Shown here: positions 4,479 to 46,433 of the stretch, piece by piece
How positions within the stretch are numbered: the stretch's first letter is position 1
How the letters are laid out: each line of letters begins with the position of its first letter
Source of the DNA: Dielma fastidiosa
GTDB lineage: Bacteria > Bacillota_I > Bacilli_A > Erysipelotrichales > Erysipelotrichaceae
Direction: 5' to 3'
Assembly (NCBI RefSeq): GCF_000313565.1
Contig: NZ_HE578923.1
Span: 295,619-359,618 of the forward strand
DNA length: 64,000 nucleotides
Position numbers and translations under genes: made by a program
The notes under the pieces: model-generated
Seen by the model: only the letters and a program-made list of their open reading frames with translations
Told to the model about the DNA's origin: nothing
Database searches by the model: none

Positions 4479-7436
4479 ATGCGGTTGAGAAAGTCGTCAA
4501 TTACTGACAGAACATTGTTGATGATGATAATAGTCGTACTGATTCAGTCAGTAATTTTTGCTGCGACCTTACTGAATGGTGATATTGTTGAGAAAACGAA
4601 TCAGAATGCTTTTGATACAATGAATGAAAAGGTAACCAACCGCCGTACCTATTTAGAAAATGACATGATTCAGCGCTGGAGCAATCTTGAATCTAAGTCA
4701 GTAATGATGACTGATAAAATCATCGCTTATCTTGATGAGCAGCAGTTAACCATTGATGAATTAGCGAAAAATACTTCAGCCGCAGTGCCGCTGATTGATG
4801 CTGTGAGTGAGGATATTATCAGTATCCTGCGAACCAATCAAGTAACCGGCGCATTTTTAATATTGGGCAATGACAACAGTGACAATGTCCAGACAAATGG
4901 TATCTATCTGCGGGATATGGATCCTATCGCTAACCCGAATGATAATTCAGATCTGCTTTGTCTGAGGGCTCCGGCCAGTATCACTGAAGGGTTAAATATC
5001 CCTTTAGATATTTATTGGAATCCTCAGTTTCAGTTTAATGAGGAGAATAAGAGTGATATCTTTTATTATCGCGTTTTATCAGTAGCGGCTCAAAATCTGC
5101 AGGCAGCGCATAAAGATCTGGGGTATTGGAGTTCGAGCGCCACGGACAGCAATGGTGTTGATGTCATACTGTATACACTGCCGCTCTTGGATCATGATGG
5201 CAACGTGCTCGGTATTCTTGGTGTTGATGTATCGCTTGATTATTTAAAGAGTCTGATGCCGTCCAAGGAATTAAACAGCAATGCTTCTTATCTGTTAGCT
5301 AAAATTACGAATCAAACTGCTCAATTGGAATATATCGCCGCCAGCGGGCCGCTGTATACGAATATTTTTCATAGTGAACCTACTGTCTCAATTCTTGATA
5401 AAACAAATTATATCAACGCGTTTGAATTTGAAACTGAGGAGAATAATCAGGTTTACGGCAATGTGCAATTGCTATCCTTATATAACACAAATTCACCATA
5501 TGCTGATGATTCATGGGTTTTAGTCGGCTTGATGCGCGGTCAGGATCTGAAATTTTTTACTAATGAATTATATAAATCGTGTCTGCTTGCCAGTCTGCTT
5601 TCATTTGCGGTATTATTTGGTGTTATCTTGGTATTAAGCCGTTCATTTACTCATCCGATTCGAAAATTGGCTAAAGAGGTTAAGAATTTTAATCCAAATG
5701 AACCAGTGAAACTAAATCCAACGAATATCCTCGAAATCGATAACCTAAGCAGTGCGATTGAAGAGCTGAGCCGTGATGTGGCAGAAACCGCCTCTTCCTT
5801 TGGCAGGATTATTTCGATGACCAGCTATCCATTCAGCGCTTTTGAATATTATACCGATCAGGAACGCTTCTTCTGTACTGATCAGCTATTGGCTACGATC
5901 GGCATTAGAGATGCCCAGCTGCAGATTAAGAATAAAGAAGATTTAATCTATCTGCTTGAGCTTTTGGATAAGCAATATCCGTCTACTCGTGTTGACAATC
6001 AGATTCGTATTTATCGAATTGCTGATGATATTGATCACAAACAGCGCTGGATACGCATGCATATCATGAAAGAAGCCAATCATATTTATGGTGTTGTAGA
6101 AAATGTAACCAGTGAAATGCTGGAGCTGCATAAGGCTGAATATGAGCGTGATCATGATGTGCTGACCAGCTTATTAAACCGCCGCGCATATACTGAAAAA
6201 ATGAATAAGTTATTTAAACAGCATGATCAGCTGAAAGTAGCGGCATTAGTCATGTCTGATTTAGATAATCTGAAATATATTAATGATACATTTGGTCATG
6301 ACTGCGGTGATGATTATATCCGCTTGATGGCTAATGTGCTGAAATCTTCTTATCCGCCTCAGCATTCTATTATCTCAAGAATTTCCGGTGATGAGTTCTT
6401 TGTATTCTTATATGGCTATGATTCAAAAGAAGAAATACAGAAAATACTCGGCGAGTTTGAGAAGAATATGAATGAATGTGTCTGGAAATTACCGGATGGC
6501 AGTTTTAGTAAGCTGCGGGCAACCACAGGTGTCGCGTGGTATCCGAATGATGCGATAGAGTTAACTTCATTGACGAAGTATGCGGATTTCGCAATGTATC
6601 GGATGAAGCATACTCAAAAGGGCAGTTTGTATTTCTTTGATCAGGAGGAATATGAAAATGACGCGTATCTGCTTCAGGCTAAGGAAGATTTGAATAAGCT
6701 GATTGATCAGGAAATGGTAGCTTATCAGTTCCAGCCAATCGTTGATGCTCATACAGGTGAGGTCTATGCGTATGAAGCGCTGATGCGTTCTAAATTAGCG
6801 GCCTTTATGAACCCTCTTGATATCTTGAGGATTGCCAGAGCGCAGTCGAAGCTTTATTTTATTGAACATCTGACTTTCTTTAAGGCGATGGAGGATTATG
6901 TAAAACAACCGGGTTATGAAAAGTATCGGCTGTTTATCAATACGATCGCAAATCAGGTTTTAACGGCAGAGGATATTGCGGAATTCAGCGCTAAATATTC
7001 AGATTATCTGCCTAATTTAGTGTTAGAAATTACAGAAGCGGAGAAGCTTGAGGATCGCCCGGCGAAAGAAAAGCGCCGTTTAGTCGATAAATGGCATGCG
7101 AAGATCGCGGTTGATGATTATGGAACCGGTTATAATGGTGAATCTGTCTTGCTGCAGGTTGAACCAGACTTTATTAAGATTGACCGTTCAATTGTGCATA
7201 ATATCAGTTTTGATGAGAATCGGCAGATTCTGCTTCAGAATATTATTTCATACTGCAAAGAAAATCATATTCTGATTATCGCAGAAGGAATTGAGAATGA
7301 GTTGGAGATGAAGACGCTGATTAATGCTGGTGTTGATTATATGCAGGGCTTCTATCTGGCTCAGCCTGCTTATGAATTGCAGGATATCAGTGAACAGAAG
7401 AAGCAGTTGATTCGTGAATATTATGAAACAAAATAA
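4479..7436 (+). CDS. Membrane c-di-GMP regulator: Cache sensor, PAS-like, GGDEF and EAL
   Basis: 985-residue bifunctional-looking cyclic-di-GMP enzyme. TM1 is at about residues 14-32. A large extracellular sensor follows (about 33-355, Cache-like, with LGVDVSLDYL typical of that fold), then TM2 at about 358-380, a HAMP-like linker and a PAS-like stretch. The GGDEF domain has DLDNLKYINDTFGHD and the signature SGDEF near residue 637, a variant often still active. The EAL domain keeps YEAL (about 764), LEITE, DDYGTGY (about 877), IKID and AEGIE, so phosphodiesterase activity is likely. It is co-transcribed with the upstream binding lipoprotein, and a terminator begins at its stop codon. Confidence 0.93.
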   Translation: MRLRKSSITDRTLLMMIIVVLIQSVIFAATLLNGDIVEKTNQNAFDTMNEKVTNRRTYLENDMIQRWSNLESKSVMMTDKIIAYLDEQQLTIDELAKNTSAAVPLIDAVSEDIISILRTNQVTGAFLILGNDNSDNVQTNGIYLRDMDPIANPNDNSDLLCLRAPASITEGLNIPLDIYWNPQFQFNEENKSDIFYYRVLSVAAQNLQAAHKDLGYWSSSATDSNGVDVILYTLPLLDHDGNVLGILGVDVSLDYLKSLMPSKELNSNASYLLAKITNQTAQLEYIAASGPLYTNIFHSEPTVSILDKTNYINAFEFETEENNQVYGNVQLLSLYNTNSPYADDSWVLVGLMRGQDLKFFTNELYKSCLLASLLSFAVLFGVILVLSRSFTHPIRKLAKEVKNFNPNEPVKLNPTNILEIDNLSSAIEELSRDVAETASSFGRIISMTSYPFSAFEYYTDQERFFCTDQLLATIGIRDAQLQIKNKEDLIYLLELLDKQYPSTRVDNQIRIYRIADDIDHKQRWIRMHIMKEANHIYGVVENVTSEMLELHKAEYERDHDVLTSLLNRRAYTEKMNKLFKQHDQLKVAALVMSDLDNLKYINDTFGHDCGDDYIRLMANVLKSSYPPQHSIISRISGDEFFVFLYGYDSKEEIQKILGEFEKNMNECVWKLPDGSFSKLRATTGVAWYPNDAIELTSLTKYADFAMYRMKHTQKGSLYFFDQEEYENDAYLLQAKEDLNKLIDQEMVAYQFQPIVDAHTGEVYAYEALMRSKLAAFMNPLDILRIARAQSKLYFIEHLTFFKAMEDYVKQPGYEKYRLFINTIANQVLTAEDIAEFSAKYSDYLPNLVLEITEAEKLEDRPAKEKRRLVDKWHAKIAVDDYGTGYNGESVLLQVEPDFIKIDRSIVHNISFDENRQILLQNIISYCKENHILIIAEGIENELEMKTLINAGVDYMQGFYLAQPAYELQDISEQKKQLIREYYETK

Positions 7437-7458
7437 ACCTCTGACGAGGTTTGTTTTT
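7435..7458 (+). terminator. Rho-independent terminator
   Basis: AAACCTC-TGAC-GAGGTTT hairpin followed by GTTTTT; it starts at the stop codon of the GGDEF-EAL gene and closes that operon. Confidence 0.8.
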
Positions 7459-7502
7459 GTATATGTACATTGTTTTGCTTATATGATTTATATTTTAAAT
7501 GA

Positions 7503-8207
7503 TTATTTAATGAATAAATGACAAATTAATGCATACATTATTGGGATGAACATGGCTGGTAAAAAGTTTGCGGCTTTTATTTTGGTAACTTTCAGCATAT
7601 TTAAGCCAATCCCAATCAAAAAAAGGTTACCAACGGTTGATACGGCAGCGATGATGTCAGCGCTGAGCAGCGGCTGAAGCAGGGAGGCGCCAAGTGTGAG
7701 GGTTCCCTGATAAATGAAAACAAAGAGAGCGGAAAATCCAACGCCGATACCCAGCGTCATGCTCATCATGCAGGCACTGATGCCGTCAATGATGCCTTTA
7801 GTGATCAGAATTGTATGATTTTGATTGATGCCTGCTTCAAGAGAACCGATGATTGCCATTGAACCGATACAAAATAATAATGTAGCTTCAATCAAGCCCT
7901 GAGCGAATGGTTTATCTTTTGAATGAGTAAACAAGGTCTGCAGCTTTTCCGCAAGCCGTCTGAATTTACCGTCGAGGTCAAAGAATTCACCCAGCGCTAC
8001 TCCGATGATGATGGAGGCGAGAATCAGATAGATGTGATCGAGCTGACTGCTGCCGGCAAAACCCATGGCACAGACTAATAGGCCAAAGGCTTCAAAGATA
8101 CGCTCACCGATTTTCTGTAATGTTTTTCGATTTAATAAACAGCCAATTAAGGTTCCTGCGAGAATCAGCAGACAGTTGACTGCAGCACCGGTTAATAATG
8201 ACAGCAT
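7503..8207 (-). CDS. DUF554 family membrane protein
   Basis: Integral membrane protein of 234 residues belonging to DUF554 (YdfK/YqgA-like); no biochemical role is established for the family. It is almost entirely hydrophobic, with about seven membrane segments. The N-terminal TGAAVNCLLILAGTLIGCLL and the FCIGSMAIIGSLEAG segment are characteristic. The start chosen is the ATG at 8207, preceded by AGGGGGTG; a longer frame to 8261 lacks a ribosome site and has charged residues that do not fit. It is a single-gene unit, divergent from the MarR-ABC operon. Confidence 0.85.
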   Translation of the reverse strand: MLSLLTGAAVNCLLILAGTLIGCLLNRKTLQKIGERIFEAFGLLVCAMGFAGSSQLDHIYLILASIIIGVALGEFFDLDGKFRRLAEKLQTLFTHSKDKPFAQGLIEATLLFCIGSMAIIGSLEAGINQNHTILITKGIIDGISACMMSMTLGIGVGFSALFVFIYQGTLTLGASLLQPLLSADIIAAVSTVGNLFLIGIGLNMLKVTKIKAANFLPAMFIPIMYALICHLFIK

Positions 8208-8321
8208 GGCACACCCCCTAAACTTATATTTTAATATACGCTTGCCCTTATTAACTGTCAAGGAAACCTTTTTGTGAGGGAATTTTGAATTGTGTGTTTT
8301 TGTGGTAATCTCACAAGTCTA

Positions 8322-8360
8322 TTGACTTTTTAAATTAGTTAACTATAATAATTGTTAACA
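8322..8360 (+). promoter_or_regulatory. Promoter and probable MarR operators of the first ABC exporter operon
   Basis: TTGACT (8322-8327) and TATAAT (8344-8349) are separated by 16 bp. The perfect palindrome TAGTTAACTA (8336-8345) overlaps the -10 box, and TGTTAACA (8353-8360) with further GTTAA repeats follows just downstream. GTTAAC-centred palindromes at a MarR-family promoter fit autorepression by the first gene product; binding is inferred. Confidence 0.6.
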
Positions 8361-8385
8361 TAGTTAAATATGTTAGAGGTGGACA

Positions 8386-8874
8386 ATGGAAGAGAATAAA
8401 TTGCAGAAAGAATTATTTAAGTCAATCATGCGTGTGAATAAAGCGATGGGTAAACGCCATTCTGCTTTAGGTGATTTACCGCAGGGTACTTTTGTGCTGC
8501 TTCATACAATCCTTGAAAATGGCCATCAGCTGGAATTCATTACTGATGAAGAAATGATTGGAATGACAGTTTCTGATCTTAGTGAAATTTTGTTGGTTTC
8601 ACGTCCAGCTATCAGCCGTATGATCAATGAGCTTGAAAGGAAGGGATTCATTCAGCGTGTCAGCACATGCAGCGACCGCCGTCTGGTTTATGTATGCATT
8701 GCGCCTTTAGGTAAGGAAGCATTGCAGGCGGCATGGCATCGAGCTTATGAAGGCTTAAATGCATTGATTGAAAAAATGGGAGAACAAGATATTAAAGAAT
8801 TGATTCGCATTTTAAATAAACTGCATACCGTGGTTTATGAATTAGCGAATGATGAAAGATTAGAAAGGAATTGA
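8386..8874 (+). CDS. MarR family transcriptional regulator
   Basis: Winged-helix DNA-binding regulator of 162 residues. The helix-turn-helix is visible in VSDLSEILLVSRPAISRMINELERKGFI, followed by the wing with the typical SCSDRRL(V) motif. MarR proteins usually repress their own operon and release DNA on binding a ligand. The next gene starts at or just beyond its stop codon, and the two following genes form an ABC exporter, so its likely role is inducible control of that exporter. Ribosome site AGAGGTGG precedes the ATG. Confidence 0.92.
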   Translation: MEENKLQKELFKSIMRVNKAMGKRHSALGDLPQGTFVLLHTILENGHQLEFITDEEMIGMTVSDLSEILLVSRPAISRMINELERKGFIQRVSTCSDRRLVYVCIAPLGKEALQAAWHRAYEGLNALIEKMGEQDIKELIRILNKLHTVVYELANDERLERN

Positions 8875-8879
8875 TGCTT

Positions 8880-11108
8880 ATGATGAAACTAAAAAAGTTT
8901 TATAAGCCATTTTTAGTCAGTATGCTGGCAGCTGTTGTACTGCTGTTTGGTCAGGCAATGTGTGATTTAAAATTACCGGATACAATGTCTGATATTATCA
9001 ATGTCGGTATTCAGCAGAATGGTATTGAACACGCGTCACCAGATGTAATCAGTGAACAGGGCATGACGCTAATGACATTGTTCATGAGTGAGGATGAAAA
9101 GACCTCAGTGCTGGCTGCTTATGATTTTATTGAAAAAGGCAGTGATGAGACGATTGCCAAGCATTATGCGAATGCTGCCGATATGAATGTATATCAAATT
9201 AATGAACAAGGAAAAGATGAGCGGAATGCGCTGGATGCAGTCTTTGGCAATAGCTCATGGACCTTTATTAATGTGATGAAGCAAGTATCGGCAGAGTCTG
9301 CCCAAAGTGGTGTGGCTAATGCTGGTACGGATTTCTCAGTTACGGATTTAGATTTTAATCAGGTTTATGCGATGCTGCCAATGCTTCAGGCATTGCCTCA
9401 GGAAATGATTGATGAACAGCATGCCGCGGCGATGGCATTGCCGGAGACGACGAAAACGCAGACAAGCGCGGTATTTGTGAAGCTGTTTTATGAAGAATTA
9501 GGGGCTGACGCTCAGCAGATTCAATTTATGTATATATTGAAAAAAGGCGGCTTGATGCTGTTGGTAACATTGCTTGGTGCGATGGCTACGATTGCTGTAG
9601 GCTTATTAGCCAGCCGGATTGCTGCCGGTCTTGGCCGTGATTTGCGTAAGGCCATCTTTGAAAAGGTTGAAAGCTTCTCAAATGCTGAATTTGATAAATA
9701 TTCAACTTCTTCTTTGATTACTCGTACTACGAATGATATCACTCAGGTACAGACCTTGATTGTAATGGGCATCCGTATGATATTCTATGCCCCAATCATG
9801 GGTATCGGCGGTATTGTCATGATTTCTTCAAAGAATTTATCAATGGTATGGATTTTAGCATTATCAGTTGCGGCTTTGCTGTGTCTGATTGGCTTTATCT
9901 TTGTGGTAGCAATGCCTAAGTTCAATATCATGCAGAAGCTGCTGGATAAGCTGAATCTCGTTTCTCGTGAGAATCTGACCGGTCAGCTTGTTATTCGTGC
10001 TTTTGGTTCTCAAGAGTTTGAAAAAGAACGCTTTGATAAAGCAAATAAGGATTTAACCAAGAACAGCTTATTTGTTCAGCGGGTTATGGCGATGATGATG
10101 CCATGTATGAATATCATCATGAACTTTACAACATTGCTGATTGTTTGGGTCGGCGCGCATCAGATTGCTGCCAGTAATATGCAGGTTGGTGATATGATGG
10201 CGTTTATGCAATATGGTATCCAGATTATCATGTCATTCTTAATGATCAGTATGATTTTCATTCTGATTCCAAGAGCGACAGTATCAGCAAATCGTATTTA
10301 TGAAGTATTATCAACCCAGCCTTCAATTGTTGATCCTGAAACAGAAGCAGAATTTAAGCAGGATCAAATGGGTGTTGTTGAGTTTGATAACGTCAGCTTC
10401 CACTATGCAGGGGCTGAAAAGGATGTATTGGAGAATGTATCCTTTGTCGCTAAACCGGGACAGACAACCGCATTTATCGGTTCGACAGGTTCAGGAAAAT
10501 CAACATTAATTAATCTGATTCCGCGTTTCTATGATGTAACTGACGGCTGTATTAAGGTCAATGGTACGGATATCCGTAATATTTCTCAGCATCGTCTGCA
10601 TGAACAGGTAGGCTATGTACCGCAAAAGGGTGTTCTGCTCTCAGGTACGATTGATTCCAATCTGCGTTACGGACGCCCTGATGCAAGTGATGAGGAAATC
10701 AGAGAAGCGGCGGCGGTGGCGCAAGCTACTGATTTTATTGAAAAGAAGGAAGACGGCTTTAATGCATTGATCGCCCAAGGCGGTACAAATGTATCAGGCG
10801 GTCAGAAACAGCGTTTATCAATTGCCCGCGCTTTAGCGACAAAGGCACCGATTTTAATCTTTGATGATTCTTTTTCAGCTCTTGATTTTAAAACGGATGC
10901 TACATTGCGGGCAGCTTTACACGAGCACACAAGTGACGCGACAGTATTGATTGTGGCTCAGCGTGTATCAACCATCATGCATGCAGATCAGATTTTAGTT
11001 CTGGATCATGGTAAGGTAGTCGGCAAAGGCACGCATGAAGAATTGTTGAAGAATTGCCCGACATATTATGAAATCGCGTCTTCACAATTGTCAAAGGAGG
11101 AATTGTAA
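8880..11108 (+). CDS. ABC exporter half with degenerate ATPase site and large extracytoplasmic insert
   Basis: Type IV ABC exporter subunit (membrane domain plus ATPase) of about 742 residues, longer than the usual 580. The excess is an insert of about 180 hydrophilic residues between TM1 and TM2 (roughly residues 35-215), on the outside. The ATPase part has Walker A GSTGSGKST and a canonical signature SGGQ. Walker B ends FDDSFSALD (catalytic Glu replaced by Asp) and the switch His is Gln (VAQRVST). These are marks of the degenerate half of a heterodimeric exporter. I favour the ATG at 8880 because GGAA lies 9 bp upstream; in-frame TTG/ATG codons at 8871 and 8874 are too close to it. The substrate is unknown. 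Confidence 0.9.
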   Translation: MMKLKKFYKPFLVSMLAAVVLLFGQAMCDLKLPDTMSDIINVGIQQNGIEHASPDVISEQGMTLMTLFMSEDEKTSVLAAYDFIEKGSDETIAKHYANAADMNVYQINEQGKDERNALDAVFGNSSWTFINVMKQVSAESAQSGVANAGTDFSVTDLDFNQVYAMLPMLQALPQEMIDEQHAAAMALPETTKTQTSAVFVKLFYEELGADAQQIQFMYILKKGGLMLLVTLLGAMATIAVGLLASRIAAGLGRDLRKAIFEKVESFSNAEFDKYSTSSLITRTTNDITQVQTLIVMGIRMIFYAPIMGIGGIVMISSKNLSMVWILALSVAALLCLIGFIFVVAMPKFNIMQKLLDKLNLVSRENLTGQLVIRAFGSQEFEKERFDKANKDLTKNSLFVQRVMAMMMPCMNIIMNFTTLLIVWVGAHQIAASNMQVGDMMAFMQYGIQIIMSFLMISMIFILIPRATVSANRIYEVLSTQPSIVDPETEAEFKQDQMGVVEFDNVSFHYAGAEKDVLENVSFVAKPGQTTAFIGSTGSGKSTLINLIPRFYDVTDGCIKVNGTDIRNISQHRLHEQVGYVPQKGVLLSGTIDSNLRYGRPDASDEEIREAAAVAQATDFIEKKEDGFNALIAQGGTNVSGGQKQRLSIARALATKAPILIFDDSFSALDFKTDATLRAALHEHTSDATVLIVAQRVSTIMHADQILVLDHGKVVGKGTHEELLKNCPTYYEIASSQLSKEEL

Positions 11109-13600: not shown

Positions 13601-14005
13601 CTATTTATCAAATGCAGGGTTATAAGCGTAATAATTTGTGCAGTCGAGATCATTTCTGACAAATTCAAGAGCTTCACCAAAACGTTGATAGTGTACGATT
13701 TCACGCTGACGAAGGAATTCGATTGGTTTGCGTACATCTTCATCTTTAATTAAACGAAGCAGATTTTCATAAGTTGTACGTGCTTTTTGCTCGGCAGCCA
13801 TGTCTTCATGCAAATCAGTGACAGGATCACCTTTGGATTGGAAATAATGACATACAAAGGCATCTCCAGCCGCAGAAACAGGGTAAACACCTGCTGTATG
13901 ATCAACATAATAAGCTTCAAAGTCAGTGCCCTTAATGTCTTTCATTGATAAATTGCTGGTTAATTGTCTTACAATAGCGCTGATGATTTCCATGTGTGCT
14001 AGTTC
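13601..14005 (-). CDS. cotJC: cotJC, 3' part (manganese-catalase-like coat protein, separated by an inserted element)
   Basis: C-terminal two thirds of CotJC, the manganese-catalase-family protein of the inner spore coat. The frame stays open upstream of the first ATG (13993) and reads ...CAYELAHMEIISA..., whose LAHMEI matches the metal-ligand helix of CotJC. Further family motifs are YVDH, QSKGDPVTDLHEDMAAEQKA and REIVHYQRF, with the remaining Glu and His ligands. The first 65 codons are missing here and lie at 20799-20605. Joining at GAA (14003-14005 with 20605-20607) restores IGTEELAHMEI and a 198-residue protein, close to the 189 residues I recall for B. subtilis CotJC. As it stands this part has no promoter or ribosome site. 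Confidence 0.9.
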   Translation of the reverse strand, partial: ELAHMEIISAIVRQLTSNLSMKDIKGTDFEAYYVDHTAGVYPVSAAGDAFVCHYFQSKGDPVTDLHEDMAAEQKARTTYENLLRLIKDEDVRKPIEFLRQREIVHYQRFGEALEFVRNDLDCTNYYAYNPAFDK

Positions 14006-14022
14006 GTACGCACATTGAGGGT
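13985..14022. other. Attachment junction of the cotJC element (cotJC 3' side)
   Basis: On the coding strand the sequence reads TGTGCGTAC-GA-A and then CTAGCACACATGG; the part after GAA is cotJC and the part before is element. GAA at 14003-14005 is shared with the other junction. The element-side arm TGTGCGTAC is nearly the reverse complement of the arm ATACGCGCA at the other end (7 of 9), as expected for the two halves of a serine-integrase attP around a GA dinucleotide. Confidence 0.75.
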
Positions 14023-14039
14023 AGACATATGCTTAAATT

Positions 14040-15245
14040 TTAAATGTTTTTAATGTATTCTTCCAAGCTGTTTAAATCAAGCTCATACACGTTGTGTTTA
14101 CCTTCCTTTTTACAAGCAATAAATATGCTTTGCGATAGTTTTGCAATCAATGCATTCACCGTAGCAGTGCTGATCTCCATGGTTTCCGCAATGTCCCTGC
14201 GAGTGATGTGTCCTTCACCAAATAAAGCATCCTGTACTAAGATAAACAGCAGTGCTTGTTCTTTTTTGTTTAAACGTGAAGAATGCAGCAAATCATTATA
14301 GTATTTAAGTTTTATATTTAATGTATCCAACCGTTGGTAAATGTCTAAAGCCGCTTTATTAATTAGATTTAGAAACATAGCTACAAAAGGGGTAAGATCT
14401 CCTTTATCCTTTTGGTCATTGCATGTATCAAATGCATTGTAGTAATCATTTTTATTATCTTTAATAATATATGAAAGCCGTAAAGCTAATAAAATATTCA
14501 ATTCTGATTTTAGGAAATAACTGCTTATAAAACGGCTTGTTCTGCCATTGCCGTCATAGAAGGGATGAACATAACCAAATAAATAATGAAAAATAGCTGT
14601 TGATATCAATGTGGGTATTTGATCATCATCGAATAATTCCAAACCTTTATTTAGCATTTCAATAATATTAGCTTCAGGAAGAATTCCTCTATGCTTTTCT
14701 TTTTGGGTGCTTGAATAAACGGATACAGCTTCTTTACGGAATATCTGTCCATCAGGTTTGTTTATGTGATCAATTTCTGCTAAGACGATGTCATCATAGA
14801 GGTTTCTGATTTCTTGACAATTTTTAATTGATAAATGTTCATCATTCATTAACTTTACATATTTTTTCGCTAATCCTTCAAATCGAATTGCTTTATTGTT
14901 TGTCGGATTATTAGCGATGCTGATTGCTGATTCAACTTCTTTTTTTGTGCTTCTAATACCTTCAATTTCATTAGTAATCATGATTTCCTCGACTAATGCT
15001 TTATTAATGAAGTTATTGATTGCGATAGAAGGTAAGGAAGCACATTGGTTATCAATGAGTGCTGAGTGTTTGTAAATGCTGATGAGAACTTTAGTAGTTT
15101 CAGGGATATTCACAAAAAAGGCGGGATTATTATGAATTGAAAAAGGCAGCAAGATGGTAGCAGCACTTGTCAGTCTATGCTGATAATAATCATTATATTT
15201 CTCGGGTTTTTTATAATAAATAGCTGATAGCAGTTCATATTCCAT
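14040..15245 (-). CDS. Fic family protein (AMP-transferase type) with winged-helix C-terminus
   Basis: 401-residue Fic/DOC protein that probably transfers AMP (or another nucleotide part) to a target protein. The active-site loop HPFYDGNGR is complete at residues 227-235. An inhibitory motif of the (S/T)xxxE(G/N) type, TNEIEG, lies upstream at 91-96, so this is a class II Fic whose own helix restrains activity. The C-terminal 80 residues hold an HTH (RRDIAETMEISTATVNALI), suggesting DNA binding or autoregulation. The start follows AAGGAGA. It is the gene nearest to one end of the element; possible roles are host-protein control or defence. Confidence 0.9.
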   Translation of the reverse strand: MEYELLSAIYYKKPEKYNDYYQHRLTSAATILLPFSIHNNPAFFVNIPETTKVLISIYKHSALIDNQCASLPSIAINNFINKALVEEIMITNEIEGIRSTKKEVESAISIANNPTNNKAIRFEGLAKKYVKLMNDEHLSIKNCQEIRNLYDDIVLAEIDHINKPDGQIFRKEAVSVYSSTQKEKHRGILPEANIIEMLNKGLELFDDDQIPTLISTAIFHYLFGYVHPFYDGNGRTSRFISSYFLKSELNILLALRLSYIIKDNKNDYYNAFDTCNDQKDKGDLTPFVAMFLNLINKAALDIYQRLDTLNIKLKYYNDLLHSSRLNKKEQALLFILVQDALFGEGHITRRDIAETMEISTATVNALIAKLSQSIFIACKKEGKHNVYELDLNSLEEYIKNI

Positions 15246-15263
15246 AAATAATCTCTCCTTTTT

Positions 15264-15325
15264 ATAGGTAACTACCTATATTATATCCAATAACTATAAA
15301 AATAACTATAATTTTTATAGTTATT
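15264..15325. promoter_or_regulatory. Palindromic control region upstream of the Fic gene
   Basis: Two symmetric elements lie here: TAGGTAACTACCTA (15264-15277) and a 15-bp perfect inverted repeat AATAACTATAAAAAT / ATTTTTATAGTTATT (15289-15303 and 15311-15325). The DNA is very A+T rich and lies just upstream of the Fic start. A role as operator, possibly for the Fic C-terminal HTH, is inference. Confidence 0.45.
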
Positions 15326-15374
15326 AAAGAAAAAAACTATTTATAAATAAAAATATTATGATTATTTGATTAGT

Positions 15375-16928
15375 TTAATCTTTGGGCAGTATGAGAGGAT
15401 ATATCTTAAGCGTGAAATTAGCTTCTGTCTGATTTTTTTTCATGCGTGTATCTTTACTATAAGATACGTGGTCAAGGATTTCTTTTAGCAGATTATTTCT
15501 GATAGCAGGATCATCAATAGCCCAGTAGATATCAATGAGTTTTTCTACTTTTGGTAAAGCAGCTGAGCGATGTTTAATCTCTTCCTTTTCTTTCTTTATT
15601 TCTGAAGCAAGTTGTTCCTGTTGGATTTGAAGTTGCTGTATCTTATCTGACAAGGTATTGAAACGCTCTGAAAATTTCTCAATCGAATAGATGCCTTGTT
15701 CAAGTAAATCGTAGGTTTTATCCATTTGGGTGCAGGCAATTTTCAAATCATTATCAATAGCTGTAAGTTGTTTAATCTTTAATGAAAGGGTATTTGTTGG
15801 TGATACAGTAAGATTATCAGAGGTAACTTTTACATCTTTCACCCATTCTTTTAAGGCAGCTATCAGTGTTTGTTCAACAAGCTCTAAGGAAGCACCAATA
15901 TTATCGCAATCTTTCTGCCGACAGATAAGCATGCTTGGTTTATTCACATAAGGTCGGCGTACCATTTTATGTCCGCATTTGGCGCAAACAATAATTGAAG
16001 CGAGAGGATTCTGTATATTTTGTGAACGATTGACAGGCGTAGTGTAATCTGATTTTTTATTCACTTGATGAAAAAGCTGTTCATCAATAATAGCCGGATG
16101 CAGCCCTTTTACTAATAGTGGATGATGATTGCGCGGCCGTGTTTTTTTTACGGAACCATTAATTGATTTTTTTACTTGAGCGCGTGTCTGCCATTTAGTC
16201 ATGCCAATGTAGACGGGATTGATTAGAATATTGCGTATCGATGATTCTGACCAATGATTGTTCTTTCTTGGCTTGATACCAAGCTGATCAAGCCGCTGAG
16301 CAATTAAGGCAGGTCCAAGCTGTTCACCATTTTTACCTGCATACCACTCAAAAATCAATTTGACCGCTTCAGCTTCCTGTAAATCAGGCTGCAGGGTGAA
16401 GCCTTTATCATTTTCAAGTTTGATGCGCTTGTAGCCAAAGGGCGGTATACTGCCGACATATTTACCTTCATTAATTGAGGCATTGCGGCCGCGCTGAAGC
16501 CGGCGGTTAATCGTTTTATATTCTCGGCGGCTCATGAATAGACCAAACTCAAAGTATTCTTCATCAAATTCATTATTTGGATCATAGGTTTTCATGGGTG
16601 TGATAATTTTGGTATCAGAAAATTTGAAAGCTTGTGCAACTATACCTTGATCAATTGTATCACCACGTGCTAAACGTTCGACTTCCATGACTAAGACGCC
16701 TGACCAGATACCTTGTTCCACTTCGTGAAGGAGCTGCTGCATCATCGGTCTGGCAGCAAGGGTCTCACCGGATACTACCTCGCGATAAATCGTTAAGACA
16801 TTCAAATTATGCTGTTCAGCCAGTTTTAAGAGCGCTTGTTCATGTCTGGCTAGTGTTTCACCTTCGCCGCGTGCTTCAGCTTCTTGATCACTTCTTGATT
16901 TTCGAAGATATAGGCAATACTGTTCCAC
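15375..16928 (-). CDS. Large serine recombinase (phage-type integrase/excisionase)
   Basis: 517-residue site-specific recombinase that makes and reseals 2-bp staggered breaks. The resolvase domain begins YLRKSRSD with nucleophile Ser11, then has a GVLVMEVERLARGD segment with the conserved Arg. A recombinase domain follows (about 170-275), a zinc ribbon (CAKCGHKM ... CRQKDC), and a long coiled coil near 370-460 that in this class controls synapsis. Length is typical. GTG start with GGAAGTG. As the only recombinase in the element interrupting cotJC, it is the natural candidate for its excision and integration. Confidence 0.95.
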   Translation of the reverse strand: MEQYCLYLRKSRSDQEAEARGEGETLARHEQALLKLAEQHNLNVLTIYREVVSGETLAARPMMQQLLHEVEQGIWSGVLVMEVERLARGDTIDQGIVAQAFKFSDTKIITPMKTYDPNNEFDEEYFEFGLFMSRREYKTINRRLQRGRNASINEGKYVGSIPPFGYKRIKLENDKGFTLQPDLQEAEAVKLIFEWYAGKNGEQLGPALIAQRLDQLGIKPRKNNHWSESSIRNILINPVYIGMTKWQTRAQVKKSINGSVKKTRPRNHHPLLVKGLHPAIIDEQLFHQVNKKSDYTTPVNRSQNIQNPLASIIVCAKCGHKMVRRPYVNKPSMLICRQKDCDNIGASLELVEQTLIAALKEWVKDVKVTSDNLTVSPTNTLSLKIKQLTAIDNDLKIACTQMDKTYDLLEQGIYSIEKFSERFNTLSDKIQQLQIQQEQLASEIKKEKEEIKHRSAALPKVEKLIDIYWAIDDPAIRNNLLKEILDHVSYSKDTRMKKNQTEANFTLKIYPLILPKD

Positions 16929-17047
16929 ATCATCACTTCCTTATAGTATCTTATGAAATGTATTATCAGATGTTGATAATGCATTGAAGAGCTAATTGCT
17001 CCTGTCACAAGATGCAGCAAAGCCCATACAATAAAGCAGGTGATAAA

Positions 17048-17221
17048 ATGAAAGTTAAAGAATTTGATTTAGGGTCGATACATGTTGAATTTTATGATGA
17101 TAATTGTGTGGATCGCGATAAATCAGAGGCCATCTATAAAGGTTTTGCAAAATATTTATTTTATATAAATAAAGAGTGCCAGGCACTTAATACAAAAAAA
17201 GAGCAAGGTGATAATTATTAA
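17048..17221 (+). CDS. Small acidic protein next to the recombinase (57 residues)
   Basis: I do not recognise the family. It is a hydrophilic protein starting MKVKEFDLGSIHVEFYDD, probably a small beta-alpha unit, with no Cys motif or membrane segment. The start at 17048 follows GCAGGTG; the frame could extend to 17012 without a ribosome site. It is transcribed divergently from the serine recombinase and ahead of the holin. Small proteins beside large serine recombinases are sometimes recombination directionality factors, so it is a candidate by position only. Confidence 0.55.
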   Translation: MKVKEFDLGSIHVEFYDDNCVDRDKSEAIYKGFAKYLFYINKECQALNTKKEQGDNY

Positions 17222-17274
17222 TGTTGATATTGTGAATTTGTAGAAATATTTTGTATATTGTAAGGAAATAGAGA

Positions 17275-17763
17275 ATGAAAAATTTATTTGAAAAAGCAGA
17301 CCCGGTCATTGTTAAGACTGGGTTTATTGGTTTTATGACGATTATAGCAGCGCAGCTAGGAATCCTGTTTCCTGTGCTTGTGCTGCTTTTATTATGCATT
17401 ATATCACCGGTATCATATCAGTCGGCTATCACGGTAAAATCAAGTCCTCCGTGGGTTTGTGGGGGATCGTAAAGAAGCTGCTTTATGCCGTCATAGTTGC
17501 GGTAGCCATTGTCTGTGATTGGGTGATTATTAATGTAGCAGAACAAGTTGGAATCATCATACCAGCTGATACATTCTTCGGCTTGCTAGTGAGTCTTTGG
17601 CTGATCTTCAACGAACTGATCAGTATTCTGGAAAACCTGATCGAGATGGAAATGACACTGCCGGGCTTCCTGATCGCATTGGTCGATAAGTTTAAGCATC
17701 TCATTGAGATCAGGATCAGCAGCTGTTGACGCTGTAAACGTTAAGGATAAAGAAAATGAATAA
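17275..17763 (+). pseudogene. Phage holin (toxin-secretion/lysis type), frameshifted
   Basis: The first frame (from 17275, MKNLFEKADPVIV...) gives a membrane segment ending VLVLLLL near 17393. The continuation MHYITGIISVGYHGKIKSS with SVGLWGIVKKLLY and ELISILEN is in the -1 frame. MDYITG-like and SILEN-like segments are landmarks of holin family 4/phi-29-like lysis holins. The join falls at CTTTTATTATG, a natural slippage or 1-bp deletion point. Near 17700 the tail could return to the first frame and end at 17763. Either the gene is dead or it depends on frameshifting; a sequencing error is also possible. Confidence 0.65.
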
Positions 17764-17844
17764 ATCAAAACCGTGGAGTCATCCGCCGTAACCTAGAAAT
17801 ATCCTGATAATTCTCGTATACTTATAGTAACGAGGTGGGATATT

Positions 17845-18678
17845 ATGAAAAAAATACTAACAAGTTTCTTATTGATGGCAATGATAGCAGGATGTGTTCA
17901 GCAAGGCCCGACGGAGGCAGCGAAGCCAGAAGAACCGCCGGTTGTTGAACAGCCTGAAAAGCCTGTGGAACAGGAGAAGCCGGAAGAAATTAAGTATGTT
18001 AAAAAAATTGATGAAAATAAGGATTGGGTGTATTTTGATGAGCCGCTGGTTTATAACTATGAACTTTCAGATTATGAAGCAATGGCAGTTACTTACTACA
18101 ATGAAAACAACATGTTAAATATAGAAATGCCAATTATTAATATTGACTTATCTAACATCAAAACGTTAAATCAATCAATTACAAACCAATTGTACAAAGC
18201 ATATGAGACAGTATCATACTATGATAATAAAAAGACAGTTGCAACATATGCAATGTCACGCACCAGATACTATATTGCTGATGATATACTTTCAGTAGAA
18301 ACTAGAACAGTGCTCATTTATGGTGAGGAGGAAGTTCAAATTAATGTTTATAATATTGATTTGACTACTGGAGAAATTCTTAGAAATGCCGATTTATTAT
18401 CAAGATATGATTTAGATTTTGCAAAAGTTGAAAAACAGCTTGTTCAAGCATTAAGTGACCAAAACATCTCTATTTGTGAACTTCACGAAGGATACAGTCA
18501 GGTTATTGATCGCCCTTGTTATTTTGATGATGCAATCAAGATTGATGAGAAATCATTGTTGATGCTGAATAATCAAAATCAGTTAGTATGCATTATGAAA
18601 AATTATTATTGTGAAGATAACACACAAGGTTATCCTTATGCTAAAACAGAAACTGAACTAATAATCAAGTCTTTATAG
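17845..18678 (+). CDS. Lipoprotein with Pro/Glu-rich linker (RsiV/DUF3298-like C-terminus)
   Basis: 277-residue exported lipoprotein. The signal peptide ends IAGC, so lipidation at Cys17 is expected. Residues 20-50 are a flexible stretch rich in Pro, Glu and Lys, followed by a folded domain with a YAMSRTRYYIADDILSVE segment and an NVYNIDLTTGEIL segment, reminiscent of DUF3298/RsiV-like extracellular domains. It lies between the holin and lysin remnants inside the element, so it is cargo or lysogenic conversion material. Function is unknown; the family hint is weak. Confidence 0.7.
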   Translation: MKKILTSFLLMAMIAGCVQQGPTEAAKPEEPPVVEQPEKPVEQEKPEEIKYVKKIDENKDWVYFDEPLVYNYELSDYEAMAVTYYNENNMLNIEMPIINIDLSNIKTLNQSITNQLYKAYETVSYYDNKKTVATYAMSRTRYYIADDILSVETRTVLIYGEEEVQINVYNIDLTTGEILRNADLLSRYDLDFAKVEKQLVQALSDQNISICELHEGYSQVIDRPCYFDDAIKIDEKSLLMLNNQNQLVCIMKNYYCEDNTQGYPYAKTETELIIKSL

Positions 18679-18695
18679 ACTTGCGGAGGAGTAAT

Positions 18696-18833
18696 ATGAA
18701 ACATTATACAAAATTAAAAGATAGTCAAGGCAACGAAATTAGTTTGTTTCCATTAGAAGTTGCTAATATCAGTAGAGATCAGCATCCATCGCTAGTCTGT
18801 TTCCATCCAGATACTTTTACACCATTTTCGTAA
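18696..18833 (+). pseudogene. 5' fragment of a phage lysin
   Basis: GGAGG and an ATG at 18696 open a frame beginning MKHYTKLKDSQGNEISLFP. This resembles the start of the intact lysin at 61058 (KLKTARGVEVVLWP...). At 18779 the similarity ends, and the frame continues into the antisense of a cell-wall-binding domain to a stop at 18831. The catalytic part is absent. Confidence 0.6.
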
Positions 18834-19189
18834 TAATACCATTCTGAACCGTCAGCAATCCACCCATTCCATCCACCTGCGTATTCTACATAACCATAAT
18901 CAGGTGAGTTGCCTGATTCTGTATCATTTATGTAAAAAACATTATTCAATTTAATTGATCCAGTCATATAATAATAGTCATCATTATTATATTGAGAGGA
19001 TTGACCTGAAGTATTCAAGCACTCGCCAGAATTATTGAACGCATAATATTTACCATTATACAAAATTTGACAGTTTTTGGCCATCTTACCATCCGAAAGT
19101 ACATAATAAATATTTTCGATCCAAGTGCTCGTAGCCATTTGACCTGCGTTTGAACCAGAAGGTAATACAACTACATATCCAATTAAATC
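18779..19189 (-). pseudogene. Inverted cell-wall-binding (choline-binding-type repeat) fragment
   Basis: On the minus strand the frame (open from 19189, first ATG at 19138) has Trp/Tyr/Gly-rich repeats such as YYVLSDGKMAKN, NGKYYAF and GSEWYYYENGVKVSGWKQ, which are typical of choline-binding or glucan-binding domains of lysins. It lacks a ribosome site and any catalytic domain. Turning the segment around at AGAT (18776-18779 and 19187-19190) would place it in frame behind the lysin 5' fragment, so it looks like an inverted 3' part of the same gene. Confidence 0.6.
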
Positions 19190-19203
19190 TTAATCTAAAA
19201 ATT

Positions 19204-19237
19204 GGCTTACTCTCTTAATTGAGGGTAAGCCGTTTTT
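19204..19237 (+). terminator. Terminator of the lysin remnant
   Basis: GGCTTACTCTC / GAGGGTAAGCC hairpin followed by GTTTTTA. It is on the plus strand, the orientation of the original lysin gene. Confidence 0.75.
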
Positions 19238-19408
19238 ATTTTAAGTATGATCCTTATAAATTTTTGTATTAAAGGGAATATTCTGAATTGTTTGATTCTT
19301 TTGTCTCAGTCAGGTACAGAAAATCACATGTTTCAGATTTATAAACATACAAAACATTGATTAAAAAGTGTCAATATCTTATAATAAATTTAACAATCAG
19401 GGGGAAAT

Positions 19409-20464
19409 ATGAAGAAACATTGGCATTATATAGATTTTTTGCGAGTTTTAGCTTGCTTTTTAGTTATTGCTAATCATACGGTGAAGGATTCATTTATCGG
19501 GTATAATATGGATTTCTCCGCAACATTAGGAATGGCTTATCTTACCTTCAGTAAAATTGCCGTACCTATTTTTTTAATGATCAGCGGTGCTTTATTATTT
19601 GAGCGGGAAGAAGATTATCTCAGTGTATGGAAAAAAAGAATTCTGCCGTTGGCGGCTGTCATTATTTTATTTAGTCTATTTGTTTATATTTTTATTGAAA
19701 AAAGAGAATTTTCTTTAATTTCATGGGTTGCTTCAATGATTCATGAACCGGCCTTTGTGGCATATTGGTATCTGTATACCTTGATGGGGATTTATGTCAT
19801 GCTTCCCATTCTTCAAAAATTAGTGCATGCATTAAAAGAGACTGATTTTAAATATCTTCTTACGATATGGTTTGTGATTATGGCATGTCTGCCGTTTTTA
19901 GGCGCATGGCATTTATTCCCCTTTGTCTCACCCTATTTTGTGCTGCCGGTTTTAACCCCTGAGATTGGCTTTTTATTTTTAGGCTACTATTTAACACATA
20001 TCCAAGAAAATCGAAAATCAATTCGTTTCTATGCTATTGTATTATGCGTTACAATGATTCTTTGTTACTTCTACAATATATTTGAAACAAAACACTTTGG
20101 ATCTTTTACTTTACTTCTCGACAGAGCGTGTGTTTGGTCCAGCGTTATACTTGCCATCTGTGTTTTTCAAATTGTCTATCAATTATACGAAACAAAAACG
20201 TTATCCATTAAATTTAATCAGATTATGTACTATATAGGTGAAACTACCTTTGGCATTTATTTAATTCATGGTATAACCTTATGGCTATGTATCCCCATTC
20301 AAACTTACTTATTAAACATCGGAAACCGTTTACTTGGGGTGGTGCTTTACAGCTTTGTAATTTTTGCTTTTAGTTACATCTTAGTTCGCTTATTAGCTAT
20401 TATACCTTTATTTAAACGGCTTTTTCATGTTCGCGGTTCTCGAAGGTTACTTGAAAATGAGTAA
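19409..20464 (+). CDS. Acyltransferase 3 family membrane protein
   Basis: 351-residue integral membrane O-acyltransferase with about ten membrane segments. The N-terminus MKKHWHYIDFLRVLACFLVIANH contains the family signature with the catalytic His. Relatives transfer acetyl or succinyl groups to cell-wall or surface polysaccharides (OatA- or WecH-like). GGGGGA precedes the ATG. It is the last gene of the element on the cotJC 5' side and is not a phage structural function, so it is probably cargo altering the cell surface. The acceptor is unknown. Confidence 0.88.
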   Translation: MKKHWHYIDFLRVLACFLVIANHTVKDSFIGYNMDFSATLGMAYLTFSKIAVPIFLMISGALLFEREEDYLSVWKKRILPLAAVIILFSLFVYIFIEKREFSLISWVASMIHEPAFVAYWYLYTLMGIYVMLPILQKLVHALKETDFKYLLTIWFVIMACLPFLGAWHLFPFVSPYFVLPVLTPEIGFLFLGYYLTHIQENRKSIRFYAIVLCVTMILCYFYNIFETKHFGSFTLLLDRACVWSSVILAICVFQIVYQLYETKTLSIKFNQIMYYIGETTFGIYLIHGITLWLCIPIQTYLLNIGNRLLGVVLYSFVIFAFSYILVRLLAIIPLFKRLFHVRGSRRLLENE

Positions 20465-20503
20465 CTTTAAATGATTATATAGATTATCCTATTGATTAAC
20501 ACA

Positions 20504-20540
20504 GGCTCACTCCTTAACTAAGGGTGAGTCTTACTATTTT
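20504..20540 (+). terminator. Terminator of the acyltransferase gene
   Basis: GGCTCACTCCTTA pairs with TAAGGGTGAGTC, followed by a T-rich tract. The stem is imperfect. Confidence 0.55.
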
Positions 20541-20580
20541 ATAATGAACAATAATATACAGCCAGTGTATTAAGCTTATA

Positions 20581-20799
20581 TTACTTCCACCATCCATGCG
20601 CGTATTCTTCAGTACCAATGTCAGTCAGCAACGCTGCTACATTAGGATACGGCATTGCATACCGCTGATTCAGATAACGCAAAGATGCACCTAATTCACC
20701 ATCAGGTCCGCCAAGCTGCGAAATAATCATTTTTGCTAATTTAGGATCCGTATGCTTTATTTCGACCGGATACTGTAATCGTTTTTCATATCTCCACAT
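20581..20799 (-). CDS. cotJC: cotJC, 5' part (interrupted after codon 65)
   Basis: N-terminal third of CotJC. It starts MWRYEKRLQYPVEI and has GGPDGELGASLRYLNQRY with a metal-ligand Glu, then LLTDIGTEE. At codon 65 (GAA, 20605-20607) the true coding sequence ends; the element supplies YAHGWWK and a stop, so the unrearranged cell makes a 72-residue stub. The start at 20799 lies one base after the cotJB stop with AAGGA upstream, so expression is from the cotJ operon. The remaining 133 codons lie at 14002-13604. Confidence 0.92.
   Translation of the reverse strand: MWRYEKRLQYPVEIKHTDPKLAKMIISQLGGPDGELGASLRYLNQRYAMPYPNVAALLTDIGTEEYAHGWWK
20590..20625. other. Attachment junction of the cotJC element (cotJC 5' side)
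   Basis: On the coding strand: GGTACTGAA-GA-A then TACGCGCATGG. cotJC ends and element begins at the GAA (20605-20607). Combining the outer flanks gives the presumed uninterrupted site GGTACTGAAGAACTAGCACA; combining the inner flanks gives the near-palindromic TGTGCGTACGAATACGCGCA. Confidence 0.75.
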
Positions 20800-20800
20800 A

Positions 20801-21586
20801 TTACTCTTGTCCTTCCCATGGCCAAGGGCTCTGTGCCCATTCCCACTCATACTGATTTTCATTACCCTTATTGCTGATTGGTGCGCAATGTCTTTCATAT
20901 AATGCCATACACTTATCTAATTCACATTTAATGCGATGATAATATCTCAGCGCACGGCAGTCACATGGATGCATATCCAGATACAGAGTTACTTCCTGTA
21001 AGGCAAAATCTAAATGCTGAATCCGCTTTTTCAATTCACGGCAGCGGCGGCATTGTTCTTCAGAAGGCTTGCATCCGCAATCAGGACGATGTGGTCTGCG
21101 TACTTCATCATACCATGTTGAGTCGCTGTCAGCAGCATCAACATCACAGTTATATTCGTTATCACAGCTAGTTTGGCAGCCATTATTGCATCCGCAATTA
21201 TTGTTGCAGCCATTATTACAGCCACAGCTGCATCCGCAATTGTTATTGCACCCGCAGTCATTGCCGCAAGGATCACAGCAGTTGTCAGTGCATCCGCAGC
21301 CACAGTTTGAATCACAGCATTGGTTATTGCAAGGATCACAGTCGCAGCAAGGATCACAGCATTGATTATTGCAAGGATCACAATCACATCCGCAGTTTGT
21401 GTCACAGCAATTATTACAGCCATCATCACATCCGCAGCCATAATCATCATTATGATAATCGCTGCAGCCATTATTATAATCACAGCATCCGTTGTTATAG
21501 TCGCCGCCGTCACATCCGCAGCCCATCATACGATCATCCATTGTGAAATCAAACAAACGATCTTCTTTACAATTTCTATTTCCCAT
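20801..21586 (-). CDS. cotJB: CotJB fused to a Cys-rich N-terminal extension
   Basis: Spore-coat protein of 261 residues. The C-terminal 90 or so residues are CotJB: HLDFALQEVTLYLDMHP, ALRYYHRIKCELDKC, and the terminal W-x-W ... SPWPWE. The N-terminal 150 residues are unusual: Asp/Asn/Gly-rich with about 40 cysteines in CGCD, CDPCNNQCCD and NNGCNNNCGC units, and no counterpart in the CotJB I know (under 100 residues). They could cross-link the coat or bind metal near the Mn-catalase CotJC. The ATG at 21586 follows GGAGG and overlaps the cotJA 3' end by 11 bp. Confidence 0.88.
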   Translation of the reverse strand: MGNRNCKEDRLFDFTMDDRMMGCGCDGGDYNNGCCDYNNGCSDYHNDDYGCGCDDGCNNCCDTNCGCDCDPCNNQCCDPCCDCDPCNNQCCDSNCGCGCTDNCCDPCGNDCGCNNNCGCSCGCNNGCNNNCGCNNGCQTSCDNEYNCDVDAADSDSTWYDEVRRPHRPDCGCKPSEEQCRRCRELKKRIQHLDFALQEVTLYLDMHPCDCRALRYYHRIKCELDKCMALYERHCAPISNKGNENQYEWEWAQSPWPWEGQE

Positions 21587-21758
21587 TGCAGCCGCAGCCT
21601 CCAATCTTATAACCTTTAAACGGTTTATCCAAATCATTGAATAAAGTACCTCTCTGTAAAGCTACTTCGGACTTATAAATACGGCGCCAAGGTTGTTTTC
21701 TGACATAAGCCATTGCCATCGGACGTCCATCGCATACTCTACCTCGATAATTGTTCAT
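21576..21758 (-). CDS. cotJA: CotJA spore-coat-associated protein
   Basis: Small coat protein, first gene of cotJABC, about 60 residues. The CotJA landmark is the C-terminal SEVALQRGTLFNDLDKPFKG; it ends in Gly-Gly-Cys-Gly-Cys, echoing the Cys-rich CotJB. I chose the ATG at 21758 since GAAAGG lies 9 bp upstream; the in-frame ATG at 21767 is only a few bases from that site. In B. subtilis the operon is made in the mother cell under sigma E; no confident sigma E promoter could be assigned here by eye. Confidence 0.82.
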   Translation of the reverse strand: MNNYRGRVCDGRPMAMAYVRKQPWRRIYKSEVALQRGTLFNDLDKPFKGYKIGGCGCNGK

Positions 21759-44746: not shown

Positions 44747-44843
44747 TAAATAAGGGTATAAAATAGGCAGGTATCATTAAGCCGTTCAAAGCCAAGCATA
44801 GTATGAATTGAATGAATGTTTCATTCAGAAAGCAGGCGATTTA

Positions 44844-46433
44844 ATGAATTATAATAAGCATAATTATAACCATCCGCAAGCGGACTGGTATGAGGAGAAC
44901 CGTGATTGCTGTCCAAAGCAATGTAATCCTTGTCAATGCTGTCCAGGCCCGACAGGCCCAATGGGTCCGCGCGGCTGTCCGGGTCCAGTTGGTCCGCGCG
45001 GCGCTGCCGGCAGGCAAGGGCCTTTTGGTCCGCAGGGTCCGCAAGGTGCAACAGGTCCCATTGGTCCTATTGGTCCGCGTGGTGTAACTGGTCCAACCGG
45101 TCCAATCGGTCCGACAGGCCCAAGAGGCATTCAAGGCCCGCAGGGTATTCAGGGTGTGCAGGGAGTACGCGGTGCAACTGGTGTACAAGGTCCAACCGGC
45201 AGCATCGGTCCAATCGGCCCAACGGGTATCCAGGGTATCCAAGGGATACAAGGACTACGCGGCAATACCGGTGTGACAGGTCCAATGGGTCCGACCGGTC
45301 CGCGCGGACTTCAAGGTGAACGAGGTATTCAGGGTGTGCAGGGCAATACCGGTGTGACAGGTCCGCAGGGACTGCAAGGGTTACAAGGCATTCAGGGACT
45401 GCGCGGCGCAACTGGCATTCAGGGGCCAACCGGCATTACTGGCCCAACTGGTCCAACCGGGATTCAAGGTGTGCAGGGTATTCAGGGACTGCGCGGTGTA
45501 ACGGGTGCAACCGGCCCAGCCGGCCCGCAAGGCATTCAAGGCGTAAGCGGAGAACAAGGTCTGCCGGGTGTAACCGGCCCGCAAGGCATGCAGGGAGAAC
45601 CAGGCATTCAAGGCCCACAGGGTGAAATTGGTCCGACAGGCCCAATGGGAGCTACCGGTGCAACTGGCGCGCAGGGCATTCAAGGCATTCAAGGTGCCGC
45701 TGGCAATACTGGTGCAACGGGTCCGATGGGGCCAACCGGCCCAACCGGTCTTCAGGGTGAACAGGGCATTCAAGGTCTTGTTGGCCCAACGGGTGCTACG
45801 GGTCCAATGGGTCCAGCCGGCCCAACCGGCATTCAGGGCGAGCGGGGCATTCAAGGTCTTATCGGCAATACGGGTCCAACCGGTCCAATTGGCCCGATAG
45901 GCCCAACTGGCGCACAAGGTATCCAGGGCATTCAGGGTTTGATCGGTGTAACGGGTGTAACCGGCCCAATCGGTCCAACGGGTCCGCAGGGTGAACGCGG
46001 AGCAACTGGCGCAACCGGCCCGGCCGGTACTTGTCCGGATCAAATTTTCGCATCCTTCTTTAATATTTCTTCACGCTATATGAATGGAGAAAGAATTCCG
46101 CTCCAAACCGGTATCAGTGATCCAAGCGGTACTATTGAATTAACCGGCACCGCGTCAATTACCCTGAAACCGGGGATTTATTCAATCACCTATCATATAT
46201 CAGCTTTATTGGCATGTCCAGCCTATATGCAGATAACACCATATTATAACGCTCAGGCGCATCTGGAACATGGCGTATATTTCAGAACCGCGGCGGCAAA
46301 TGTCAGCGCTGTGGGATCAGCCTCATTTATTATTGAAGCTGCCCAGGAAACGATATTCAATCTGACCTATAACAGCCCATCAGAGGCTCGTGAAGGTGAA
46401 ATTACGGTTGTGATTTTTAAGCTGCATCGATAA
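44844..46433 (+). CDS. Collagen-like exosporium glycoprotein (BclA-like)
   Basis: 529-residue surface protein: a Cys-rich leader ([12 protein letters not shown]), about 360 residues of Gly-X-Y triplets rich in GPTGP, GIQGIQG and GATG, and a C-terminal jelly-roll-like domain of about 130 residues ([17 protein letters not shown]..., ending VVIFKLHR) similar in style to the BclA/C1q-TNF trimer head. Thr-rich triplets are the usual glycosylation sites. It probably forms hair-like filaments on the spore. I use the ATG at 44844 after AGCAGG; 44808 has no ribosome site. Confidence 0.9.
44941..46030 (+). repeat. Collagen-triplet-coding tandem repeat region
   Basis: Degenerate 9-bp and 18-bp units coding Gly-X-Y, with frequent GGTCCGACAGGC-like and GGCATTCAAGGC-like blocks. 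It is prone to length variation and to spurious open frames on both strands. Confidence 0.85.

Follow-up and report, generated by a model that had tools for sequence, protein, structure and literature searches.

CotJB is a small protein of the spore coat whose normal role is to hold a manganese-catalase layer. Standard CotJB (PF12652) is about 80-100 aa long, contains few cysteines and is encoded in the order cotJA-cotJB-cotJC. CotJB and CotJC co-purify with the exosporium in C. sporogenes (PMC4942563). Spore-surface assemblies that depend on disulfides are built by three unrelated Cys-rich proteins, CsxA, ExsY and CdeC (PMC7333573, PMC7677010). Sporulation genes split by serine recombinase elements form a further group of described systems, comprising skin (sigK), SPbeta (spsM), gin (gerE), vfbin (spoVFB) and vrin (spoVR). 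None of the three, Cys-rich coat proteins, CotJ or elements that split sporulation genes, is itself new; the locus described here lies in a stretch of 64,000 nucleotides from Dielma fastidiosa (hereafter the window).

The cysteine-rich arm of CotJB and its translation

The cotJB gene (20801..21586, minus strand) was identified by translation and Pfam and encodes 261 aa with 50 Cys. Like standard CotJB, it has a complete C-terminal domain (20813..21037, minus strand; residues 184-258; E=2.7e-25), which covers positions 2-76 of the 76 in PF12652 at 88.8 bits against a curated cut-off of 29, and it lies between cotJA and cotJC, with a PF11007 gene upstream and a PF05067 half downstream. Unlike the standard protein, it carries a 176-residue Cys-rich N-terminal arm (21059..21586, minus strand; residues 1-176) composed of 43 Cys, 29 Asn, 29 Asp and 21 Gly among others, the remaining 7 Cys falling in the intact CotJB part. 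The original prediction, of a Cys/Asn/Asp-rich extension with about 40 cysteines ahead of a complete CotJB domain, was borne out on each count, with 40 Cys per 129 residues between residues 22 and 150. The densest 150 residues in cotJB hold 42 Cys; the runner-up among the 88 six-frame open frames of at least 100 aa in the window holds 14 and is the opposite strand of the cotJB repeat. The arm contains 12 CxC and 6 CC pairs, and Cys at i,i+4 occur 20 times against 11.8 expected, a preference that is absent from some relatives and so implies no common lattice. At the DNA level the extension contains imperfect tandem repeats of 15-42 nt. PF12652 was the sole Pfam match for the full protein, with no metallothionein or other metal-domain match at E up to 0.01 and no match to PF10612 (CotY/CotZ/ExsY); a PDB search gave no meaningful match, and no homologue of the arm was found elsewhere in the same genome.

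The cotJB ATG (21586) lies within the 3' end of cotJA, as does, upstream of it at 11-base spacing, a GGAGG ribosome-binding site (21598..21602, minus strand). The cotJA gene (21576..21758, minus strand; 60 aa; PF11007, E=1.1e-14) encodes a plain CotJA with the C-terminus GGCGCNGK, so the Cys-Gly-Cys previously noted at the end of CotJA is present near the C-terminus; since the Gly-Gly codons double as the cotJB GGAGG, the gene overlap accounts in part for this tail. Upstream of cotJA, in both the window and Traorella, CATATGTTA / CATATTCTA resembles a sigma-K-like -10. No -35 to match it was found in either, and a sigma-E/sigma-K promoter for cotJA was not taken as evidence.

A homologous CotJB extension was recovered in 5/5 species of the sister genus Traorella, so the fusion, for which homologues had been sought, occurs outside this genome too. 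The Traorella cotJB frames span 213-312 codons with 28-37 Cys each (5 genomes; the L041 frame is cut by the contig start). Their gene layout is that of the window and their apparent start is GTG; an ATG-only counting rule scores the L044 frame at 0 Cys, its actual content being 33. Two features are common to the extensions of window CotJB and Traorella: an FDF motif close to the start, and a linker of the form D-A-A-x-S-x-x-x-W, identified by alignment and represented in the window by DAADSDSTWYD (21107..21139, minus strand; residues 150-160; alignment and model). The frame and several Cys positions are kept between the two genera, and the window CotJ sequences group with Traorella. A scan of genome contigs with full-length CotJB returned no relative, whereas alignment of the domain did find relatives.

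The possibility that the Cys-rich stretch is an annotation artefact, with translation beginning inside the frame near the CotJB domain, had been named as what would overturn the prediction. Only one internal start, TTG at codon 185 (21034), would give the bare domain. It has no ribosome site ahead of it, and the corresponding Traorella codons are TTA, TTA, TTG, CTA and CTG, so that it is not conserved as a start; this candidate was rejected. When two Traorella extensions were compared, 69/119 substitutions fell at third codon positions (P=3e-8). Because of the GGAGG-preceded ATG, the Traorella frames, the third-position bias and the poor internal TTG, we conclude that the sequence data give good support to synthesis of the arm from the upstream ATG, and an internal start is highly improbable.

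The split cotJC gene and its intervening element

The operon had also been predicted to be developmentally split, and the break was located in cotJC. The 5' half (20581..20799, minus strand) has 72 codons, matches PF05067 positions 1-69 and stops inside an intervening element; the 3' half (13601..14005, minus strand) matches positions 96-196. Junction analysis, which also placed the 3' half, delimited the element to 14003..20607 (about 6.6 kb), with GAA cores at its ends. It encodes a large serine recombinase of 517 aa (15375..16928, minus strand; Pfam Resolvase + Recombinase + Zn_ribbon_recom), and its reconstructed site, GCGTAC-GAA-TACGCG, forms an almost perfect inverted repeat. The N-half of cotJC ends after TDIGTEEYAHGWWK and the C-half restarts at ELAHMEI; joining at the shared GAA yields TDIGTEELAHMEI and an uninterrupted 198-residue CotJC that matches intact relatives. 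Alternative joins on 2-4 shared bases were in frame, but gave extra or altered junction residues or no family match. An internal serine recombinase and a predicted excision join that precisely restores the reading frame are features shared with skin, SPbeta, gin, vfbin and vrin; the difference from those elements is the target, cotJC, which is not mentioned as a target of gene-intervening elements in PMC5595907 or PMC4191935. A second, intact Mn-catalase family gene is present on another contig.

The element also carries a Fic-domain protein (14040-15245), a holin-like protein (17394-17729), a choline-binding-repeat fragment (18779-19138) and an acyltransferase-3 membrane protein (19409-20464); judging from this cargo, it looks like a reduced prophage. 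Recombinase relatives are encoded at 14 other cotJ loci and directly adjoin truncated cotJC in the cases checked. Truncated cotJC is present in many spore formers and was observed in the window and at L069, L055, L030, L170, L144, L146, L107, L115, L156 and L078, often with a recombinase relative directly beside the break; L069, for example, has cotJC halves at 8724-9164 and 2175-2501 and a recombinase at 7085-8668. The breaks fall at about three recurrent sites: after GG near residue 33, at DIGTEE near residue 65 and at EDMAA near residue 136. From these sequences, cotJC appears to be a recurrent target of gene-splitting elements.

Other lineages with cysteine-rich arms on CotJA or CotJC

In the family survey, CotJB was detected in 33/273 genomes, and the Cys arm on CotJB was limited to one clade, the window and Traorella. 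Among related Erysipelotrichaceae, genera g35, g21, g30, g38 and g27 encode a plain CotJB, and their CotJA core is preceded by a Cys-rich arm of about 7-39 Cys, to which g38 and g27 add a C-terminal Cys-rich arm on CotJC (10 and 20 Cys, respectively). Such CotJC tails were seen at L063 (9023-9757; 10 Cys beyond the core) and L064 (9447-10346; 20 Cys), in genomes that also have the CotJA arm. A weaker CotJA arm occurs in g68, with 6-8 Cys in 4/6 species and 1 in the remainder. More distant are the CotJA arms of Clostridium sp. 12(A) and HBUAS56010, with 50 and 32 Cys in C-x5-C repeats; that of Clostridium sp. 12(A) (L098, 1143-2423) extends over 381 residues at the N-terminus and contains about 50 Cys in CPEKPSCVMPAK-type repeats. 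In 119/171 records, a set in which some loci are represented more than once, the sequence outside the cores contains fewer than 4 Cys. At L010, L012 and L017, from the neighbouring family f2, one open frame contains both CotJB and a CotJA-like segment, which suggests a cotJA-cotJB fusion.

The filler of the arms differs by lineage (Asn/Asp/Gly; Asp/Arg/Glu; Gly/Asp/His; Arg/Asn; Pro/Lys/Val), as does their net charge (-0.16 to +0.09 per residue); their Cys content is 15-24% throughout. The Lacrimispora-like CotJA arm, for instance, has Pro/Lys/Val filler, C-x5-C spacing and no His. Cys density is the only trait common to the arms; filler, charge and His/Asp content vary. In the CotJB+CotJC tree, arms on CotJA, CotJB and CotJC fall in separate well-supported groups, and the number of independent origins is uncertain because the deep nodes are weak (24-38).

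Other spore-surface genes were sought in the same genome. SpoIVA is encoded, and no match to the CotZ/CotY family (PF10612) was found anywhere in the genome. No comparable Cys-rich coat protein was found among 22/30 Cys-codon pattern matches in the genome, a weak negative. The window also encodes a collagen-like (BclA-type) protein (44808-46433) with a Cys-rich N-terminus holding a 12-residue segment; through this N-terminus the protein may be anchored by disulfides to a Cys-rich layer of the spore.

A cross-linking model and its alternatives

In the AlphaFold2 model of CotJB, residues 1-153 have low confidence and are predicted to be disordered, a short helix is predicted at residues 157-161, overlapping the linker, and the CotJB domain is a confident helical hairpin whose pLDDT exceeds 90 across most of residues 181-230. 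CotJB would have two parts: a helical hairpin at the C-terminus and, ahead of it, a disordered arm that holds the 43 Cys. In the proposed mechanism, the hairpin would be incorporated into the CotJA-CotJB-CotJC assembly while still in the mother cell; after deposition of CotJ in the coat, the arms of adjacent molecules would oxidise to form many inter-chain disulfides, and the CotJ layer, including its Mn-catalase subunit CotJC, would be locked into an insoluble network. The frame, its conservation, the disorder prediction and the recurrence of arms on CotJA, CotJB or CotJC are direct results; the coat location, oxidation state and cross-linking of CotJB are inferred. Taking sequence, structural modelling and analogy together, we give a probability of roughly 0.55 to the arm being a disulfide cross-linker of the CotJ layer. 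The analogy is with CsxA (25 Cys), CdeC (37 Cys) and ExsY/CotY/CotZ, which likewise have very high Cys content, a presumed spore-surface location and likely disulfide networks; CsxA and CdeC were compared with window CotJB by composition and published descriptions. Unlike those stand-alone proteins, the Cys-rich part here is an arm on a CotJ subunit.

The original prediction had offered a disulfide-linked or a metal-loaded scaffold, and of the two the former fits the comparative data better, the latter having found no specific support. As a store of Mn, Zn, Fe or Cu, the arm might load CotJC or retain metal in the coat, and its 29 Asp and its CxC and CC pairs, together with a Mn-catalase family protein encoded in the same operon, would be in keeping with such a role; the CxC motifs would suit metal thiolates as well as disulfides and weigh against the cross-linking model. 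The Pfam searches, however, gave the protein no metal-binding domain, Asp and His contents are not conserved between arms (the Lacrimispora-like CotJA arm being His-free), and Mn normally favours O/N ligands over thiolates. Disulfide cross-linking is favoured since Cys density is kept while other residue types change between lineages, and we regard a metal store as unlikely.

Less probable still, and about equally so, are two readings in which the thiols would act otherwise or not at all. Dense thiols adjoining a Mn-catalase family subunit could serve as a sacrificial buffer that scavenges peroxide beside the catalase, but we know of no route by which oxidised thiols would be re-reduced in a dormant coat; sequence cannot tell such a buffer from a cross-linker. 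Near-neutral growth of Cys-codon-rich, low-complexity repeats, with the chemistry unselected, would account for the imperfect tandem repeats and for the wide variation in filler and length. It sits poorly with a frame and Cys positions kept between genera, with the excess of third-position substitutions and with the repeated origin of arms on three CotJ subunits.

Cross-linking by the arm thus remains the preferred reading, and the fact that arms change subunit and keep their Cys density suggests that cross-linking of the CotJ layer itself is selected. More tentatively, and with somewhat less than even odds, an interchangeable Cys-rich arm may have appeared on, or switched among, the three CotJ subunits in various lineages of gut spore formers, making the Mn-catalase layer a self-stapling scaffold able to replace missing CotY/CdeC-type proteins. 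Full-text searches of literature outside subscription journals yielded few papers, none of whose titles or abstracts describes a Cys-armed CotJA or CotJB or a cotJC split by a recombinase or prophage, and the novelty of the Cys-armed CotJ and of the split cotJC is provisional. Because the arm can be cleanly deleted with the conserved domain untouched, the cross-linking idea is directly testable. The finding bears on the role of CotJ in the coat, which is currently poorly defined, and on disulfide-hardened coats in anaerobic gut spore formers that lack CotY/CotZ.
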